A stretch of 64,000 nucleotides of DNA, from positions 124,001-188,000 of the forward strand of contig NZ_REGA01000001.1 in the NCBI RefSeq assembly GCF_003841505.1, in the 5' to 3' direction. Position 1 is the first letter of the stretch, and every line of letters begins with the position of its first letter. Below the pieces are notes generated by a model. The model ran no database searches, was not told where the DNA came from, and was given only the letters and a program-made list of their open reading frames with translations. Source of the DNA: Natrarchaeobius chitinivorans. Its GTDB lineage: Archaea > Halobacteriota > Halobacteria > Halobacteriales > Natrialbaceae. Of the stretch, positions 7,904-63,453 are shown in pieces. The position numbers and the translations under genes were made by a program.

Positions 7904-7985
7904 ATACGGATTACTGTAACTGTTTACCGGCGCACCCGCGACCCGGGCGACGGGTGCGCCGGTAATGATTTACAGTAAACCGTAT
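7904..7985 (+). repeat. 82-bp double-hairpin element, copy 1
   Basis: The outer inverted repeat ATACGGATTACTGTAA / TTACAGTAAACCGTAT has one mismatch in 16. It encloses a GC-rich hairpin ACCGGCGCACCCG / CGGGTGCGCCGGT. The internal junctions are CTGTTTAC on the left and GTAATGA on the right. It lies between divergent genes. Confidence 0.95.
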
Positions 7986-15254: not shown

Positions 15255-15336
15255 GTACGGATTGCTGTAACTGTGTACCGGAGCGACCGGGTGCAATCCC
15301 GCGGTCGTTCCGGTAACGATTTACAGTAAACCGTAC
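15255..15336 (+). repeat. 82-bp double-hairpin element, copy 2 (variant inner stem)
   Basis: Outer arms GTACGGATTGCTGTAA / TTACAGTAAACCGTAC; the end pair is G-C instead of A-T, a compensated change. The inner stem is ACCGGAGCGACC / GGTCGTTCCGGT, different in sequence from copy 1 but still paired. It lies downstream of the PAS kinase. Confidence 0.93.
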
Positions 15337-18059: not shown

Positions 18060-18136
18060 ATACGGTCTGCTGTCAGTCGTTTCCGGAGGCTGGTGCCATC
18101 CCGCGGTCTCCGGTAAAGAGGGACAGCAATCCGTAC
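18060..18136 (-). repeat. Double-hairpin element, copy 3 (divergent, apparently inverted)
   Basis: Outer arms ATACGGTCTGCTGTC / GACAGCAATCCGTAC keep the pairing while differing in sequence from copy 1 (TGCTGTC/GACAGCA replaces TACTGTA/TACAGTA). Inner stem CCGGAG / CTCCGG. Junction sequences match the other copies better in the reverse orientation. It lies between tupC and the ModE-like gene. Confidence 0.75.
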
Positions 18137-20222: not shown

Positions 20223-20960
20223 GTGAAATACGTTCGATTCCGCGACCCCGCCGGTGCCGTCCGGCGCGGCGAGTTCGAAAACGGTCACGTCCAGTTCGGA
20301 AACGAAAGCTACAGCCTCGAGAGCGACGAAATCGACGTCCTCGCGCCGTCAGATCCCTCGAAGATCGTCTGCGTCGGCCGCAACTACGCCAAACACATCG
20401 ACGAGATGGGATCCGACACGCCGGATCGGCCGCTCCTGTTCCTGAAAGGACCGAACACGGTCGCGAGCCACGGAGATACCGTCACCGCGCCGGCCGGGAA
20501 AGACCGGATCGACTACGAGGCCGAACTCGGCGTCGTCATCGGAGAGCAGTGTCGCCACGTCCCCGAGGCGGACGCGATGGACGTCGTCGAGGGCTTTACC
20601 TGCGTCAACGACGTCTCGAACCGCGACGACCAGCAGGAAGAACGAAACTGGATCCGCGGGAAGGCCTTCGACGGCGCAGCGCCGATCGGGCCGGTGCTCG
20701 CGACTCCCGACGAAGTCCCCGACGACGCGTTCGTCCGCGCGCGAGTCAACGGCGAGGTTCGACAGTACGGCTCGCTCGAGCAACTCATCTTCCCCATCCC
20801 GGAACTGATCGCCGAGATCACGACCTACCTCACGCTCGAACCCGGCGACGTCATCGCCACGGGCACCCCCGAAGGGGTCGGCCCGCTCGCCGACGGCGAC
20901 GACGTCGAAATCGAAGTCGAGGGCGTCGGCACGCTCGAACACTCGATCCGAGTTCCCTGA
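20223..20960 (+). CDS. Fumarylacetoacetate hydrolase (FAH) family protein
   Basis: 245 aa, typical for the single-domain FAH superfamily (hydrolases, isomerases and decarboxylases acting on acylpyruvate-like substrates; divalent metal). Signature elements are KIVCVGRNYAKHIDEMG, FLKGPNTVASHGD, the metal ligands in DYEAELGVVIG, and GDVIATGTPEGVG. The exact substrate is not deducible. I chose GTG 20223 (VKYVRFRDPAGAVRRGE) because it matches the usual N-terminus and the 80 codons upstream look non-coding. The stop TGA ends at 20960, which is also the first base of a double-hairpin element. Confidence 0.9.
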   Translation: MKYVRFRDPAGAVRRGEFENGHVQFGNESYSLESDEIDVLAPSDPSKIVCVGRNYAKHIDEMGSDTPDRPLLFLKGPNTVASHGDTVTAPAGKDRIDYEAELGVVIGEQCRHVPEADAMDVVEGFTCVNDVSNRDDQQEERNWIRGKAFDGAAPIGPVLATPDEVPDDAFVRARVNGEVRQYGSLEQLIFPIPELIAEITTYLTLEPGDVIATGTPEGVGPLADGDDVEIEVEGVGTLEHSIRVP

Positions 20961-21041
20961 GACGGATTACTGTAACTGTGTACCGGCGCACCCGCCGCCT
21001 GGGTCGCGGGTGCGCCGGCAATGACGTACAGTAAACCGTAT
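20960..21041 (+). repeat. 82-bp double-hairpin element, copy 4 (starts on stop codon)
   Basis: Outer arms AGACGGATTACTGTA / TACAGTAAACCGTAT and inner stem ACCGGCGCACCCG / CGGGTGCGCCGG. Its first base is the A of the FAH gene stop codon. Confidence 0.94.
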
Positions 21042-21141
21042 GAGACGACTCGAGTCGTCTCTGGCAGGGACTCGAGTTCCCGCCAGCCTCGACGAACTCC
21101 GTGAACTCGACTGACTCAGACGTCTCGAGAGCGGCGACGAC

Positions 21142-26916: not shown

Positions 26917-29403
26917 TTAGTTCTGACGGCGGAGCGCGAGCATCGCGGCGGCCATCAGGGCGACGAGTGCGACGGCGATACCGAAGCCGGGCACGTCATC
27001 GTCTTCTGGCTCAGGCTCGTCGTCGGACGGCTCAGGCGTGTCGTCGGATGGCTCAGGCTCGTCGTCAGACGGTTCTGGCTCATCGTCGGACGGCTCTGGC
27101 TCGTCGTCAGACGGCTCTGGCTCGTCGTCAGCGTCGTCAGCTTTGTCGTCGTCGTCAGCGATCTTGTCGACGAAGACAGCGTCAGCGGATCCGATTCCGC
27201 TTCCACTGATGCGGAAGGTGAGTTCACCCTCGTCGCCTTCGCTACGGTCGCTCAGGTCGACAGCTCCCGTTTCGAAGGTTCCGTCCGAGGCGATCTCGGT
27301 GTCCTCGAGGGTGTGCAGGAAGCTTGGCGTGTCGCCAGCGTTACGGATGCGGACCGTGGAGTCCGATCCGGGTGCGACGTTCGTCTCACCGGTGACGGTG
27401 AACTCATCGGAGGTCTCGAGTTGGACGTTGTCGTCCTCGTCGAGGTTGTCGAACGTCACGGCGGGTTCGACAATCGTGAACTCAGTGCTCACGGACTGGT
27501 CGGAGTCAGCCTGGAAGTACGGATACGCGTTGTGGTAGGTGCCGTCGAATGGCGCGCCACCATTATCGTACTTGTAGCGCTCGTCAGGGTGGGTCTCGTA
27601 CTCGAGCTCAGCGGTGAAGTCCATGCCGTCCGCGAGGGAGCGGTCGAATGCATTGCTGGAGCTCGTGTCGACGACAACGTAGAATTCGCCTGCATCGTTG
27701 TCGGCAATGACGAGGACCTCATCTGAATCCGCTCCGAGGTTCAGTGCGGTTGGGTCCTGGTTCCCAGTTGCGTCGTCAGCTTCGACCCCGAAGTTGATAC
27801 CTTCGTAGTTATCGTCGTTAAGCGCCTCGAGGGTGCTGGCACTGAAGCCGTCATCGAGTGCGTCCCAGTCCTCACTGTCGTGGTAGACCATGGCGCCGTA
27901 GAGACCGGTCGCTTCGGCCTTGATGATGAGACGGTCGTCCTCTGCGATGTCCGTTCGCTCAGTAGCGGCATCGAGGAGATCGTCGAGTTCGTCCTCGTCT
28001 GCGTCGTCACCTGGGGCGACCCACGTGCTGATGGAGTCGACACCGGGCGTCGTCAGGTCGAGCGTCGCGAGGTCGAGTTCGTCGTCGAGTTCGGACGAAC
28101 CGTCGCTAGCGACGATGAAGTCACCGTTTCCGTTGGCAGCGACGTCATAGTCGGTCGCCTGGAGCGGTCGGGTCAGCTGGTATTCAGTAGACTGGTAGTC
28201 CGACGCATCGCTGATCAGCCCGAGTTCGTCGAGGTAGTCAGCGAAGTCGCCGTTCGAACCGAGCGTATCACCGACTTCCTCGTCGTGGAAGTCGGCACCA
28301 GTCGATCCAACACCGTCGTGGACTTCGCTCGTGAGTTCGTCGTCACCAGCGTTGTAGACGTCCTCGGTGTCAGCATCGTGGGCACCCAGCGTACGGGTGT
28401 TGACCTGGAAGCTCACTTCACCGTCTTCTTCGTCGTCAACGACGTGTACGACGTCAACGAATCCAGCGTTTTCGTCACCGATCTGGATCCACGTCTCGTC
28501 GGTGTCATCGAGGTCAACCGTGAACTCGACGATGTCACCGGCGGTCTGCGTGTAAACGCTCTGGTCGAACGAACCACTGCGGTCGTGTTCGACAACAGAG
28601 ATGTTAGCGGTCGCTTCAGCTGACGTGTCGTCGACTTCGAACGTGAATTCGTAGTCGTCGGTGTCAATGCCAGCGAAGTCTGCATCGAATTCGCCGTCAC
28701 TGACGCCGTTGAGCGTAATTTCGTCGTCTTCAGTGTTCAGATCGATGCTACCGTGGGCGGCGAAGATGCCGTCGAGTTCCGAGGCGGTAAGGTCACCGTC
28801 GGCGTCAACGACCACGTCGTAGGCTCCACGGTTAGAGTCGAACTCAATCTCCGTGACAGCGCCGTCACCTTCGTCGGTGACTTCGTCATCGTCGAACTCA
28901 GCGCTCAGCGACTGAACGCTCACTTCGAACGCATCGCCGCTGGAGACATCGTCACTCTGTGCAGGGAGACTCTCGTGTGCGAGGAAGAAGTATTCCTCAT
29001 CGAGGTCACTCGTGTCGATGACAACAACGCTCCAGTCCTGAACGTCAGATGAGTCGACACCCGGGTGTTTGTCCTCGAGCGTCTCGTTGACTTCTGCCTC
29101 TGCAGCAGTCTGGATGGTCAATTCCGCCTCGAAGGACGTATCGTCATCGCCGAAGCTGTTGACCTGTCGGAGTTCGACTTCATTGTCTGTGATGCCGTCT
29201 AGGTCTTGGCCATAGGCGATGACGTCTTGTCCTTGCCAGGCGATACTACCGTCGTACTCGTACGTAAGTTCAGCTGGATGATCGTGTGCCGCCGCCGAGC
29301 CCGCAAACGCAGCGGACATGGCAAAAACGGACATAACCATCAGCGCGGCAAGGAACACTGCGCGTCCCTTTTCGCGATATGATGTCGTGTTTCGTGTACT
29401 CAT
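26917..29403 (-). CDS. S-layer-type surface glycoprotein (PGF-CTERM)
   Basis: 828 aa exported protein. The N-terminus MSTRNTTSYREKGRAVFLAA...AGSAAA is the haloarchaeal surface-glycoprotein signal peptide. The body is beta-rich, very acidic and Asn-X-Ser/Thr bearing. The C-terminus has about six EPEPSDD repeats, a short spacer, then PGFGIAVALVALMAAAMLALRR, the PGF-CTERM signal processed by archaeosortase A with lipid attachment. It most likely builds the S-layer lattice. ATG 29403 was chosen because it starts the signal peptide; the frame continues to 29469 without resemblance. Monocistronic, with its own terminator. Confidence 0.93.
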   Translation of the reverse strand: MSTRNTTSYREKGRAVFLAALMVMSVFAMSAAFAGSAAAHDHPAELTYEYDGSIAWQGQDVIAYGQDLDGITDNEVELRQVNSFGDDDTSFEAELTIQTAAEAEVNETLEDKHPGVDSSDVQDWSVVVIDTSDLDEEYFFLAHESLPAQSDDVSSGDAFEVSVQSLSAEFDDDEVTDEGDGAVTEIEFDSNRGAYDVVVDADGDLTASELDGIFAAHGSIDLNTEDDEITLNGVSDGEFDADFAGIDTDDYEFTFEVDDTSAEATANISVVEHDRSGSFDQSVYTQTAGDIVEFTVDLDDTDETWIQIGDENAGFVDVVHVVDDEEDGEVSFQVNTRTLGAHDADTEDVYNAGDDELTSEVHDGVGSTGADFHDEEVGDTLGSNGDFADYLDELGLISDASDYQSTEYQLTRPLQATDYDVAANGNGDFIVASDGSSELDDELDLATLDLTTPGVDSISTWVAPGDDADEDELDDLLDAATERTDIAEDDRLIIKAEATGLYGAMVYHDSEDWDALDDGFSASTLEALNDDNYEGINFGVEADDATGNQDPTALNLGADSDEVLVIADNDAGEFYVVVDTSSSNAFDRSLADGMDFTAELEYETHPDERYKYDNGGAPFDGTYHNAYPYFQADSDQSVSTEFTIVEPAVTFDNLDEDDNVQLETSDEFTVTGETNVAPGSDSTVRIRNAGDTPSFLHTLEDTEIASDGTFETGAVDLSDRSEGDEGELTFRISGSGIGSADAVFVDKIADDDDKADDADDEPEPSDDEPEPSDDEPEPSDDEPEPSDDTPEPSDDEPEPEDDDVPGFGIAVALVALMAAAMLALRRQN
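26998..27137 (-). repeat. 21-bp in-frame repeats coding the EPEPSDD stalk
   Basis: About six 21-bp units (consensus GACGGCTCTGGCTCGTCGTC on the plus strand) encode the Glu-Pro-Ser-Asp stalk before the C-terminal anchor. Confidence 0.85.
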
Positions 29404-41561: not shown

Positions 41562-41643
41562 ATACGGATTACTGTCACTGTTTACCGGCGCACCCGCCGC
41601 CCGGGTCACGGGTGCGCCGGCAATGACTGACAGTAAACCGTAT
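41562..41643 (+). repeat. 82-bp double-hairpin element, copy 6
   Basis: Outer arms ATACGGATTACTGTCA / TGACAGTAAACCGTAT; the CA/TG pair replaces AA/TT of copy 1, a compensated change. Inner stem ACCGGCGCACCCG / CGGGTGCGCCGG. It lies between the carB 3' end and the elp3 start. Confidence 0.95.
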
Positions 41644-56751: not shown

Positions 56752-56833
56752 ATACGGACTACTGTACCTGTTTACCGGCGCACCCACCGTCCGGGTCGCG
56801 GGTGCGCCGGCAACGACGTACAGTAAACCGTAT
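56752..56833 (+). repeat. 82-bp double-hairpin element, copy 7 (abuts stop codon)
   Basis: Outer arms ATACGGACTACTGTA / TACAGTAAACCGTAT and inner stem ACCGGCGCACCC / GGGTGCGCCGG. Its last base is the A of the TGA stop (minus strand) of the threonine-synthase-like gene. Confidence 0.95.
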
Positions 56834-58023
56834 CACACGCCCTGACTCATCAGGTAGCTCCGCAACACGTCGGCCTCCTTGCTCCCGGTCGCGGCGTTGA
56901 CGAGGACGACCGTCTCGTCGCCGTCGAACTCGCCGCGCTCGGCGAGTTCCCACGCGCCGGCGGCCGCGGCCCCAGCACTCGGCGTCATCTCGAGACCCTC
57001 GTGTTTGGCAACCGTGACCGCAGCCTCGAGGACGTCCTGGTCGCCGGCCGCAACCGCGCCGCCGTCGGTCTTCCGGATCGCCTCGAGCACCCGCGAACCT
57101 GCGATCGGATCGGGAACTTCGATCCCGCCACAGATCGTATCGGGCGTCTCGACAGGTTCGGTGTCGTCGGCTCCCGACTCGAACGCGTCGACGATCGGCG
57201 CACAGCCGTCGGCCTGGGCGGCGTACAGCGAGGGGCGCTCGTCGACGAGGCCGAGCGTTTGCAACTCGGTCACCGCCCTGGAGCCGCCGACAAGCCCGGT
57301 ACCGCTCCCGGTCGGGTAGACGATCGCGTCGGGCACCGCCCACTCGAGTTGCTCGAGGATCTCGTACGTGGTAGTCTTCTCGCCCTCGTGGCGGTACGGC
57401 GTGACGAACGTCTGGAGTGGCTCCCAGTCGTCGTGTTCGGCTATTCCCTCCTCGAAGGCGTCGACGGCGTCGTCGTATCGCCCGCCGACGACGTTCATGT
57501 CGCCGCCGTGGACGTTCACCATCGCCTTGTTCGAAAAGCCCGAGCGTGCGGGGAGATACACGTGTGACTCGAGGCCCGCACGGCCGGCGTAGGCCGCGGC
57601 CGACTGCCCGCCGTTGCCGGTCGACGCGAGCGCGACGTCGGTTCCACCGCTTTCCACAACGGCTGTTACCGCCATCGACTGGCCCCGATCCCGAATCGTT
57701 CCCGTCGGATTCCGGCCCTCGTCTTTGATCAGTAGTCGTCCGACGCCGAGTTCCGCCGCCAGCGCGGGGCACTCGACCAGCGGCGTCGCCCCCTCGTCCA
57801 TCGTCACGGCCGCTTCGCGGGCGACCGGCAACAGGTCCTCGTAGCGCCACATCGAATCCAGCGGACGCGACTCGAGGGCGGCCCGATCCAGATCGATCGC
57901 GTCGTAGTCGTACGTCGCCTCGAGAAGCCCGTCACAGTCGGGACACCGACCGATCCGATCGGCGTCCACGTTGGCCCCGCAGTCGACACACTCGAGGCCG
58001 AGAAAGGCGTCAGTCGTCTCCAT
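56833..58023 (-). CDS. thrC: Threonine synthase family protein lacking the PLP lysine
   Basis: 396 aa fold-type II PLP family. N-terminal zinc ribbon (C12, C15, C27, C30), substrate loop EGATPLVECPALA, cofactor region LLIKDEGRNPTGTIRDRG, phosphate-binding STGNGGQSAAAYAGRA. In catalytic members the Schiff-base lysine lies in (S/T)-F-K-D-R; here the position is Arg111 (TIRDRG). It may therefore be a non-catalytic or altered paralogue rather than the housekeeping threonine synthase. The remainder aligns well to the family. Confidence 0.8.
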   Translation of the reverse strand: METTDAFLGLECVDCGANVDADRIGRCPDCDGLLEATYDYDAIDLDRAALESRPLDSMWRYEDLLPVAREAAVTMDEGATPLVECPALAAELGVGRLLIKDEGRNPTGTIRDRGQSMAVTAVVESGGTDVALASTGNGGQSAAAYAGRAGLESHVYLPARSGFSNKAMVNVHGGDMNVVGGRYDDAVDAFEEGIAEHDDWEPLQTFVTPYRHEGEKTTTYEILEQLEWAVPDAIVYPTGSGTGLVGGSRAVTELQTLGLVDERPSLYAAQADGCAPIVDAFESGADDTEPVETPDTICGGIEVPDPIAGSRVLEAIRKTDGGAVAAGDQDVLEAAVTVAKHEGLEMTPSAGAAAAGAWELAERGEFDGDETVVLVNAATGSKEADVLRSYLMSQGV

Positions 58024-59914: not shown

Positions 59915-60877
59915 GTGAACCTCTATCGTAGCGCTCGTGCCGTCGCCGGGGCGTCCGGATCCGGCGACGACGCGATCGACTGGCGATCCGCCGCAGAAGC
60001 CGCGAAGGCGGCGACGGATCCCGGATCGATCGCACTCGAGCCCGGCGAGGCCGACGCCTACGCGCGTGACGTCCGGGATGCTCGTGCGGCCGTTCGAACG
60101 GTTTCCGGTGCCGAGTTCGACGTCCCCGACACCATCGAGATCCAGAACCGTCACCACTGGATCGACGCCAACGTCGAGACCTTCGAGCGCGTGATGGGCG
60201 CACTCGAGGCCCACACCGACGTCTTTCCCGGTATCGCCCGGACGATCAACACGGGGACGATGGCCGTCTTGCTCGGCTTTCTCGGACGGAACGTCCTCGG
60301 TCAGTACGACCCGCTGTTGCTCGCCGACACGCCGGAGGACGACCACGCGCTCTATTTCGTCCGGCCGAACATCCTCAACGCGGCCGACACGCTCGAGGTC
60401 GATCCCGACCGGTTCAGACGCTGGATCGCGTTTCACGAGGTAACCCACGCGGCGGAGTTCGGCGCGGCCCCGTGGCTCTCGACGCACCTCGAGCGGCGCA
60501 TGGAAGACGGCATCGCCGCCCTCTCGGCGGGGTCGTTCGACCGCGACGCGTTCCGGGAACTCGACGCCGCGATGACCGTCGTCGAGGGGTACGCCGAACT
60601 CCTGATGGACCACGCCTTCGACGACGAGTACGAGGACCTCCGACGGAAACTCGACGCGCGACGGCAGGGCCGAGGCCCCCTCCAGCGGCTGTTCCGACGG
60701 CTGCTCGGACTCGGACTCAAACAGCGCCAGTACGAGCGCGGGAAGAACTTCTTCGAGAGCGTCGTCACCGCGAGCGACCTCGAGACTGCGAGTCGCGTCT
60801 GGGAGCGACCCGAGAACCTGCCGACCCAGGACGAACTCGACTCGCCGGGGCTGTGGCTGCGCCGGATCGACCGCTGA
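59915..60877 (+). CDS. Zinc-dependent metalloprotease (DUF2342 / F420-associated family)
   Basis: 320 aa. Contains HEVTHAAEF (zinc ligands His174 and His178, catalytic Glu175) and conserved flanks HHWIDANVETFERVMGALEAH and MTVVEGYAELLMDHAF, matching the coenzyme-F420-biosynthesis-associated hydrolase family. Substrate unknown. GTG 59915 chosen (VNLYRSARAV), as upstream codons belong to the neighbouring gene in another frame. Confidence 0.88.
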   Translation: MNLYRSARAVAGASGSGDDAIDWRSAAEAAKAATDPGSIALEPGEADAYARDVRDARAAVRTVSGAEFDVPDTIEIQNRHHWIDANVETFERVMGALEAHTDVFPGIARTINTGTMAVLLGFLGRNVLGQYDPLLLADTPEDDHALYFVRPNILNAADTLEVDPDRFRRWIAFHEVTHAAEFGAAPWLSTHLERRMEDGIAALSAGSFDRDAFRELDAAMTVVEGYAELLMDHAFDDEYEDLRRKLDARRQGRGPLQRLFRRLLGLGLKQRQYERGKNFFESVVTASDLETASRVWERPENLPTQDELDSPGLWLRRIDR

Positions 60878-60889
60878 CAGGCCGACTGG

Positions 60890-61110
60890 ACAACCACAGG
60901 TGGGCACGGACAGCTGCGGCTGAGACGGACAGCCACAGGTGAGCACGGACAGCTGCGGCTGAGACGGACAACCACAGGTGGGCACGGACAGCTGCGGCTG
61001 AGACGGACAGCCACAGGTGAGCACGGACAGCTGCGGCTGAGACGGACAACCACAGGTGGGCACGGACAGCTGCGGCTGAGACGGACAGCCACAGGTGGGC
61101 ACGGACAGCT
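60890..61110. repeat. 39-bp tandem repeat, about 5 copies
   Basis: Units of 39 bp, each with CACAGGTG(A/G)GCACGGACAG and CTGCGGCTGAGACGGACA, run through the intergenic region between the metalloprotease gene and the small membrane protein. Period is a multiple of three but the encoded peptides look artificial (Cys/Gly/Pro-rich). There are no spacers, so it is not CRISPR. Confidence 0.93.
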
Positions 61111-61122
61111 GTGTGTGAGTGC

Positions 61123-61431
61123 TTACAACTTCGAGTGACGAAACTCTCGAGCGACGCGCCGGAGGTACCACCACAGCGCCGTCCCGACCAGACAGCCGCC
61201 CAGCGCCGACAGTCCGACGATGGCGTACCCGCCGCCACCCTGGAGCGCCATCGTCGCACCGGAGAGGCTGACCAGCAAGACGAACCCGACGCTCATCCGG
61301 CCGACGCCGTCGCCTACTCCGCCGAGTTGAGGGCGTCTCGAGCGATCGTTTCTCCGCGTTCGATCGACTCCCTTCGATCGGTCGGACGATCGGGTTCGCT
61401 CGCTCCCGGCCCGCCGGCCGTCTCGCCTCAT
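61123..61431 (-). CDS. Small two-helix membrane protein
   Basis: 102 aa: an arginine-rich N-terminal half and a C-terminal hydrophobic hairpin (MSVGFVLLVSLSGATMALQG; YAIVGLSALGGCLVGTALWWYL). ATG 61431 overlaps the stop of the upstream gene (61428-61430), supporting this start; a start at ATG 61296 (57 aa) would leave only the membrane hairpin. Unknown function. Confidence 0.65.
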   Translation of the reverse strand: MRRDGRRAGSERTRSSDRSKGVDRTRRNDRSRRPQLGGVGDGVGRMSVGFVLLVSLSGATMALQGGGGYAIVGLSALGGCLVGTALWWYLRRVAREFRHSKL

Positions 61432-61874: not shown

Positions 61875-61971
61875 CGTACGGTACTCTCCGGCGGGCGACC
61901 CCAAAGACGCATCGGACGCGAGTGCATGCCGCCCGATCGATGGCACCCGGCAATCGACGAAAGGGACGAAC

Positions 61972-62098
61972 TCCCGGCATCCGACGACAGTGACGTCATT
62001 CCGGCATCCGACGACAGTGACGCCATTCCGGCATCCGACGACAGCGAGGCCCTTCCGACAACCAACGACAGCGACCCACTCCCGGCAGTCGACGACAA
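61972..62098. repeat. 27-bp tandem repeat, 3 good and 2 degenerate copies
   Basis: Units beginning CCGGCATCCGACGACAG at about 61976, 62003 and 62030, then weaker copies. They run up to 5 bp before the MscS stop codon at 62103. Confidence 0.9.
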
Positions 62099-62102
62099 CC
62101 GT

Positions 62103-63125
62103 TCATGCGGAGTCGGTCGGTCCCTCCCCGTGGTCGATCGCCTCGCCAGGTTTCGGTCTCCGGTCGGCCGACGAACGGTCGGCTGACTCGGATTCGATTC
62201 GGCGGTTGCGATCGAGCGCGTCGTCCCCGACTTCAGGCTCGAGCGATTCCCCGTCGGGCGAATCGAACGCAACTCGCGCCCGCCCGCTCGTCTCGTCGAA
62301 GACGTGGTGGGTGTGCGGGTACGCGATTTCGACGTCGGCGTCCCGAAACGCGTTCCAGGCGTTGCGCTGGACCGCCGATCGAACTTTCAGCGGGAGGTAC
62401 GGCTCCTCGAGCCAGAGTTTGAGATCGATCGAGATGCCGTGATCGGCGAACTCCCTGACGAACGCCGTCGGGCGCGCCGGAAACCGCGACTGGCCCACCC
62501 TGATCGGCGGCCCGCCCTCGATGACGCCGTCGACCCGGCGAGCCGACCGCTCGAGGAGTTCGCAGGCCTGCTCGAGGTCGCCCTCGTAGGTGACACAGAC
62601 CTCGATCGAGAGCCTGCTCCGTTCGTCCTCCGCCGAACAGTTACGGACGTCGCGCTCGCGCATCGTCTCGTTCGGAATCACGAGAAACGAGTTCTCGAGC
62701 GTGAACACACGCGTATAGCCGAGCGTGATGTCGTCGACGTACCCCCGCTCTTCGCGGTCGGCGAGTTCGATCATATCGCCGACCTCGTAGGGTCGGTTGA
62801 ACAGGATGAACAGCCCGCTGACGTAGCTGCGCCCGATCGGCGCGAGCACCGCACCGACGACGAGCGAGAGGACGGTAAACGAGAGCAGGACGTTCTGCGG
62901 GCGAAAACCGAGGAGCCCGGCGAAGGGGACGAACGCGTAGCAGACGATCGCGATCCGGCCGGCCAACAACACCGCGTTGGCGGTCGTCGGTCGAAGGGCT
63001 CGCCGCTCGAGGCGCGGTCGAAGCCGATCGGCCAGCAGCTTCGAGCCGTACCACGCGACGAGGATCGCGATTCCGGCGAGCAGCCACGTCATCTCGAGCG
63101 TACCGACGAAATCCGTGACCGCCAT
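62103..63125 (-). CDS. MscS-family mechanosensitive channel
   Basis: 340 aa. N-terminal transmembrane helices (TWLLAGIAILVAWYGSKLLAD, ANAVLLAGRIAIVCYAFVPFAG, VLLSFTVLSLVVGAVLAPIG), then the MscS beta domain (GLFILFNRPYEVGDMIEL, GYVDDITLGYTRVFTLENSFLVIPNETM) and the alpha/beta domain. The pore-helix Gly/Ala pattern is moderate. C-terminal extension acidic. Likely an osmotic-safety valve. ATG 63125 was chosen; the longer frame upstream has no membrane character. Confidence 0.88.
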   Translation of the reverse strand: MAVTDFVGTLEMTWLLAGIAILVAWYGSKLLADRLRPRLERRALRPTTANAVLLAGRIAIVCYAFVPFAGLLGFRPQNVLLSFTVLSLVVGAVLAPIGRSYVSGLFILFNRPYEVGDMIELADREERGYVDDITLGYTRVFTLENSFLVIPNETMRERDVRNCSAEDERSRLSIEVCVTYEGDLEQACELLERSARRVDGVIEGGPPIRVGQSRFPARPTAFVREFADHGISIDLKLWLEEPYLPLKVRSAVQRNAWNAFRDADVEIAYPHTHHVFDETSGRARVAFDSPDGESLEPEVGDDALDRNRRIESESADRSSADRRPKPGEAIDHGEGPTDSA

Positions 63126-63371: not shown

Positions 63372-63453
63372 ATACGGATTTCTGTAACTGTGTACCGGAG
63401 CGACCGCAAGACGGCGCCCAGTCGCTCCGGAGACGACGTACAGTATTCCGTAT
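63372..63453 (+). repeat. 82-bp double-hairpin element, copy 8 (variant inner stem)
   Basis: Outer arms ATACGGATTTCTGTA / TACAGTATTCCGTAT with internal mismatches; inner stem ACCGGAGCGAC / GTCGCTCCGG. It is upstream of the AI-2E gene, and its last arm overlaps a TATA-like box. Confidence 0.92.

Follow-up and report, generated by a model that had tools for sequence, protein, structure and literature searches.

Short repetitive elements comparable to the one studied here are known from bacteria and archaea. Prokaryotic MITEs are short and noncoding, have terminal inverted repeats and a short target duplication, occur in many intergenic copies and are presumably moved in trans; stop codons are nowhere mentioned in the text of a review on these elements (PMC10969869). 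In Haloquadratum walsbyi the high-copy elements SMR-A, SMR-B and the PATEs have been described, which measure about 80–110 bp. The SMRs have prominent inverted repeats and are reported to produce no target duplication and to insert in other mobile elements, and the PATEs are without terminal inverted repeats (PMC3119063). Bacterial REP elements are high-copy extragenic palindromes of 20–40 bp tagged at one end with GTAG or CGTC (PMC3733652). As regards target duplications, classical IS630/Tc1 elements duplicate TA, but in the related pogo group the Fot elements have a TAA duplication (PMC7386202).

The element described here was found in a window of 64 kb, the window being the whole stretch of DNA that was analysed. 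It is an 80-bp palindromic, MITE-like unit with the 13-bp terminal inverted repeats TACGGATTRCTGT...ACAGTAAACCGTA. All the properties of prokaryotic MITEs listed above, presumably including movement in trans, apply to it, but unlike these MITEs (PMC10969869) it forms, over its full length, a single conserved hairpin with covariation, TGA/TCA is duplicated and half of the copies are situated on stop codons. With the SMRs and PATEs it shares the size range, the haloarchaeal host and the high copy number, and with the SMRs also the prominent inverted repeats (PMC3119063). Identity with an SMR is ruled out by the 3-bp duplication and identity with a PATE by the 13-bp terminal inverted repeats, according to the respective definitions. 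Measured against the definition in PMC3733652, the element is not a REP either, since it is 80 bp long, begins with TACGG and has inverted-repeat ends and a target duplication. No published description was found in the searchable literature, with ISfinder and subscription journals lying outside the search, and the element may already be catalogued somewhere. We rate as new the coincidence of the target duplication with the stop codon and its genome-wide extent; the MITE kind itself is known.

Copies in the window

The features of the window are as follows.

20223..20960, plus strand: FAH-family gene (Pfam FAA_hydrolase), the stop codon of which is the target
20958..20960, plus strand: left copy of the target duplication, TGA, identical with the FAH stop codon
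20961..21040, plus strand: element abutting the FAH stop, 80 bp, first base G instead of T
21041..21043, plus strand: right copy of the target duplication, TGA, of the FAH-side element
56753..56832, plus strand: element abutting the threonine-synthase-like stop (TCA on the plus strand, 56833–56835), 80 bp, flanks TGA/TCA
56833..58023, minus strand: threonine-synthase-like gene (Pfam PALP), the stop codon of which touches the element
7905..7984, plus strand: element between divergent genes, TGA/TGA duplication
15256..15335, plus strand: element of the AGCGACCG-arm subtype, 72 bp after a stop, decayed flanks TCG/CCA
18061..18135, minus strand: diverged seventh copy, 75 bp, flanks TGA/CGA
41563..41642, plus strand: element 46 bp away from the right-hand gene's stop, TGA/TGA duplication
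63373..63452, plus strand: element of the AGCGACCG-arm subtype between divergent genes, flanks ATA/TAA

The preliminary description had reported six well-preserved copies; the window contains seven, the added one being the diverged copy at 18061–18135. Its observation that elements touch the stop codons of the FAH gene (20958–20960) and of the threonine-synthase-like gene (56833–56835, minus strand) was confirmed. The A of TGA, which had been regarded as the outermost base of the outer arm, has to be assigned to the flanking duplicated target, and the cores of the two elements comprise 20961–21040 and 56753–56832. The earlier length of 82 bp is explained by the duplicated target T-S-A, because the A of the left flank and the T of the right flank mimic an extra base pair. 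At the threonine-synthase-like stop one of the two flanks (TGA/TCA) is altered.

Besides these copies the window contains a tandem array with a 39-bp unit (60849–61158), which starts close to where a called gene ends, and tandem repeats at 61947–62108 and 26996–27163. The periods of the latter two, 27 bp and 21 bp, are multiples of three, and the repeat at 26996–27163 is located within a called gene.

Structure of the element and target duplication

The host genome comprises 4.57 Mb in 48 contigs, from which 100 stretches of 20 kb (2.0 Mb, 44%) were taken as a sample. Iterative profile searches identified 252 element places in these 2.0 Mb, and in 193 of them both ends are present. A perfect 3-bp direct repeat flanks 133 of the 193 copies (TGA in 76, TCA in 54). 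The rare flanks TAA/TAA, TTA/TTA and TCG/TCG, each seen in a single copy, are also identical on both sides, which argues for a target-site duplication and would not be expected if the hairpin merely extended further. The target has a palindromic context, about GNC-TSA-GNC. With terminal inverted repeats, a target duplication of fixed length (3 bp) and short, multiple and mostly intergenic copies, the element shows these three characteristics of a MITE, and at 80 bp its coding capacity is too small for a transposase.

In an alignment of 37 copies drawn from many genomes, 94.4% of the pairs of the two helices are retained, and both-sided changes are seen in 12 of the 27 helix pairs. The covariation score is 0.260, compared with 0.103 for shuffles and no more than 0.073 after sliding. 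Also conserved as mismatches are the internal loop and the A.A mismatch near the ends of the element. In alignment A1 these correspond to columns 6/75 (A.A) and 16–22/59–65 (a CGATT-type strand opposite AATGAC), where mismatches are kept across genera; inside a covarying hairpin they could possibly form a protein-recognition site. A 79-bp subtype with CCGCCGATCGCC arms is found alongside the common subtype in several genomes (copies in G015, G079, G098 and G103).

Excess of copies at stop codons

Genes were called with a home-made codon-usage method, which gave 1852 genes, 59% of them with TGA stops. When the distances between elements and gene stops were listed, the excess that the preliminary description had advised looking for was found precisely at offset 0: 85 of 190 intergenic copies (2.0 Mb) are situated there, and the other offsets from -40 to 60 hold at most five copies each. 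Stops make up about 9–10% of the non-genic TGA/TCA sites, and compared with this site frequency the binomial p for 85 of 190 is about 4e-36. Target sequence alone can be dismissed as the cause of the excess, as weighting the sites by their similarity to occupied non-stop targets lifts the expected share of stops merely to 20–22%. Against this target-weighted expectation the copies with perfect duplication, 65 of 128 at stops, still give a binomial p of 2e-12. A general motif behind stop codons that could serve as landing pad was also rejected, since element-free stops have none apart from TACGG/GACGG being slightly overrepresented after TGA. Pfam domains were detected in seven of ten randomly picked ORFs abutting an element.

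Filled and empty sites

The nearest named relatives of the FAH protein of the window belong to the Natrialbaceae. FAH orthologues stop at the same codon, and so do the orthologues of the threonine-synthase-like gene, which use TAG or TGA and are without the element; in the nearest relatives the hairpin is missing at both stops. We considered whether the genes could be truncated, with the element supplying a new stop. This is ruled out because the orthologues share the end codon and because the duplicated TGA necessarily predates the insertion.

In Natronococcus pandeyae the same FAH stop carries an 80-bp element (2239–2318 of L271), behind which a second TGA stands. Compared with the FAH copy of the window this element has the opposite orientation and different arms. 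Four other Natronococcus genomes have an uninterrupted CTGA-AC at the FAH stop and contain no insert. This pair of filled and empty sites shows insertion into a stop codon. In Natrarchaeobius chitinivorans the head of an element stands on the same FAH stop and is broken by an IS, the start of which matches IS630-family elements with a TCA/TGA duplication. It thus appears that elements have inserted repeatedly at the FAH stop, although some of the hits could share ancestry, followed by later loss.

Occurrence in other genomes

The exact pattern of the element ends was found in 77 of 125 genomes of the family, representing 20 of 29 genera, compared with no match for the reversed pattern. Loci in other genomes were judged with the codon model of this genome. 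In a non-random sample of 30 genomes, this genome included and each represented by one listed locus, the 3-bp duplication is present in 26 and the element abuts the stop of a credible ORF in 20. Five high-copy genomes, which had been chosen for TGA flanks, have 16 of 30 copies at stops. In genome G079 the corresponding figure is 17 of 46, compared with 45 stops among the 847 noncoding TGA sites (5.3%) of the same stretches. In Natrinema thermotolerans the end of a CDS annotated by the depositor coincides with the element boundary. No match to the element was obtained in viral contigs, searched with the exact pattern, or in phage records.

Explanations for the excess at stop codons

We consider it very likely that a MITE-like element of the Natrialbaceae inserts at T[G/C]A and duplicates it, and that target choice and selection concentrate the copies on stop codons. 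The 80-bp element would be nonautonomous and moved in trans by a transposase, most likely of the DDE type, and insertion at T[G/C]A in the palindromic context would duplicate the three bases. An insertion into a gene's own TGA would restore the stop on the left side and change no amino acid; insertions into TGA/TCA within genes would break these genes and be lost. Target choice together with selection would leave the surviving copies concentrated on stop codons. Since a stop restored by the duplication makes insertion into a gene's own TGA harmless to the protein, an excess at stops is what this mechanism predicts. Inside called genes we found three of the 193 copies, although genes carry 61% of the target-weighted sites, which points to strong selection against harmful insertions. 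The boundaries of the element, its 3-bp duplication, the target motif, the excess at offset 0 with its recurrence in other genera and the one pair of filled and empty sites were observed; we infer both the identity of the transposase, with the IS630-family IS described below as best candidate, and the share of selection, as opposed to insertion bias, in the excess.

The preliminary description had proposed that insertion targets stop codons. The TGA/TCA duplication, the excess at offset 0, seen here as well as in other genera, and the filled and empty sites bear out the insertion. What is recognized, however, is a DNA trinucleotide in a palindromic context, and about half of the copies are situated away from stops, so that a recognition of the stop codon itself does not follow. 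The adjusted odds ratio for stops is 5.0 (3.3–7.3) in all spacers. For convergent spacers, with the other sites up to 100 bp from stops as comparison, it is 3.45 (1.8–7.7), and for tandem spacers, with sites up to 60 bp away, 2.1 (1.1–4.1). If the copies are divided into thirds by similarity, from most to least similar, 31, 28 and 24 of 63 are located at stops. The share does not rise in older copies, so gradual loss elsewhere explains only part of the excess. The two- to fivefold residual at stops could be due to steered insertion, fast purging or hidden features of the spacers.

Three other explanations were weighed against the proposed insertion and selection. An insertion machinery that itself prefers gene 3' ends, for instance through DNA state, transcription or supercoiling, would act beyond target and negative selection. 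It would fit the three odds ratios, the share of stops that stays flat with copy age, and the copies in convergent spacers being sparser more than 100 bp from stops. The residual could also reflect quick purging, unannotated spacer features or target preferences missed by the position-weight model, and we regard such a preference as rather unlikely. Were transposition actively steered to gene 3' ends or stops, it would represent an archaeal case of safe-harbour targeting in which the duplicated trinucleotide is the restored stop; we think this doubtful. That the coincidence arose by chance or as an artefact of gene calling might be suspected, as the preliminary description rested on two cases and the gene calls were home-made. 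The p value of the excess, its replication in other genomes, the Pfam domains in the sampled abutting ORFs and the depositor's annotation in Natrinema thermotolerans speak so clearly against it that this explanation is negligible.

The hairpin could also be useful after stops, as terminator, mRNA 3' end or stabilizing structure, and be kept there by positive selection. The excess at offset 0, the strong compensatory conservation and a weak bias in orientation relative to the stops (52 to 34, p=0.07) would agree with such a role. However, hairpin energy (p=0.77) and profile similarity (p=0.89) are equal at stops and elsewhere, and the nearest relatives do without the element at the same stops. 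T-runs are no commoner than after ordinary stops: at least four T within 40 nt were found in 4 of the 85 stop-abutting cases and after 167 of all 1852 stops. Positive selection for a useful hairpin is therefore improbable in our opinion, and the role as 3' end or terminator that had been suggested earlier finds no support in T-runs, orientation, hairpin stability or profile similarity. In Rfam no match within 20900–21100 reaches the gathering score. Judged from their sequences, the elements are probably not terminators, and in annotation the hairpins would be read as marking gene ends.

The element provides a clear case of a transposon target duplication that falls on a codon with a fixed meaning, insertion into the stop keeping the coding sequence intact by construction. 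This suggests a simple reason why an element present throughout the family can attain hundreds of copies in a genome as compact as this one, roughly 80% of which is coding. Its numerous replicate insertions, spread over many species, also make it a test system for separating insertion bias from selection.

Candidate transposase and related mobile elements

An IS with the 13-bp ends of the element (TACGGWTTRCTGT) was found neither by pairing ends across the 2.0 Mb, nor by the end-plus-start pattern in 125 genomes, nor at the ends of DDE_3 transposase loci in three genomes. An IS630-family IS of the Natrialbaceae, 1072–1073 bp long, with two ORFs, HTH_33 and DDE_3 domains (NF033545) and the ends TAGGGATCAGCAG shows a 3-bp TCA/TGA duplication in four genomes (L290, L291, L292 and L294). 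In this genome a 99-bp MITE with the ends TAGGGATTATCGT has mostly a TGA/TCA duplication and twice ACT. It is present at L139:12791–12972 (contig C14) and in about ten other places of the 2.0 Mb; what resembled a 182-bp relative on this contig is actually the 80-bp element with this MITE nested in it. The IS and the 99-bp MITE have the TCA/TGA duplication and ends beginning with TA-S-GG in common with the 80-bp element but differ in the inner part of the terminal repeat, which is unlike TACGGWTTRCTGT. Because both produce the same 3-bp duplication, an IS630-like transposase would be our best guess for the mover of the element, and it is offered as a guess only. The IS1031 group of IS5 also produces 3-bp TNA duplications and may be considered as a source of the mover.

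On contig C3 of this genome, near 237343–238271 (L338), a seemingly intact IS630-type transposase gene with the candidate ends TATAGTAACCATTAGA/TATAGTAGACATTAGA was noticed. TATAGTAGCCACTG motifs, which are similar to these candidate ends, are contained in several lone-end sequences and suggest another MITE family.
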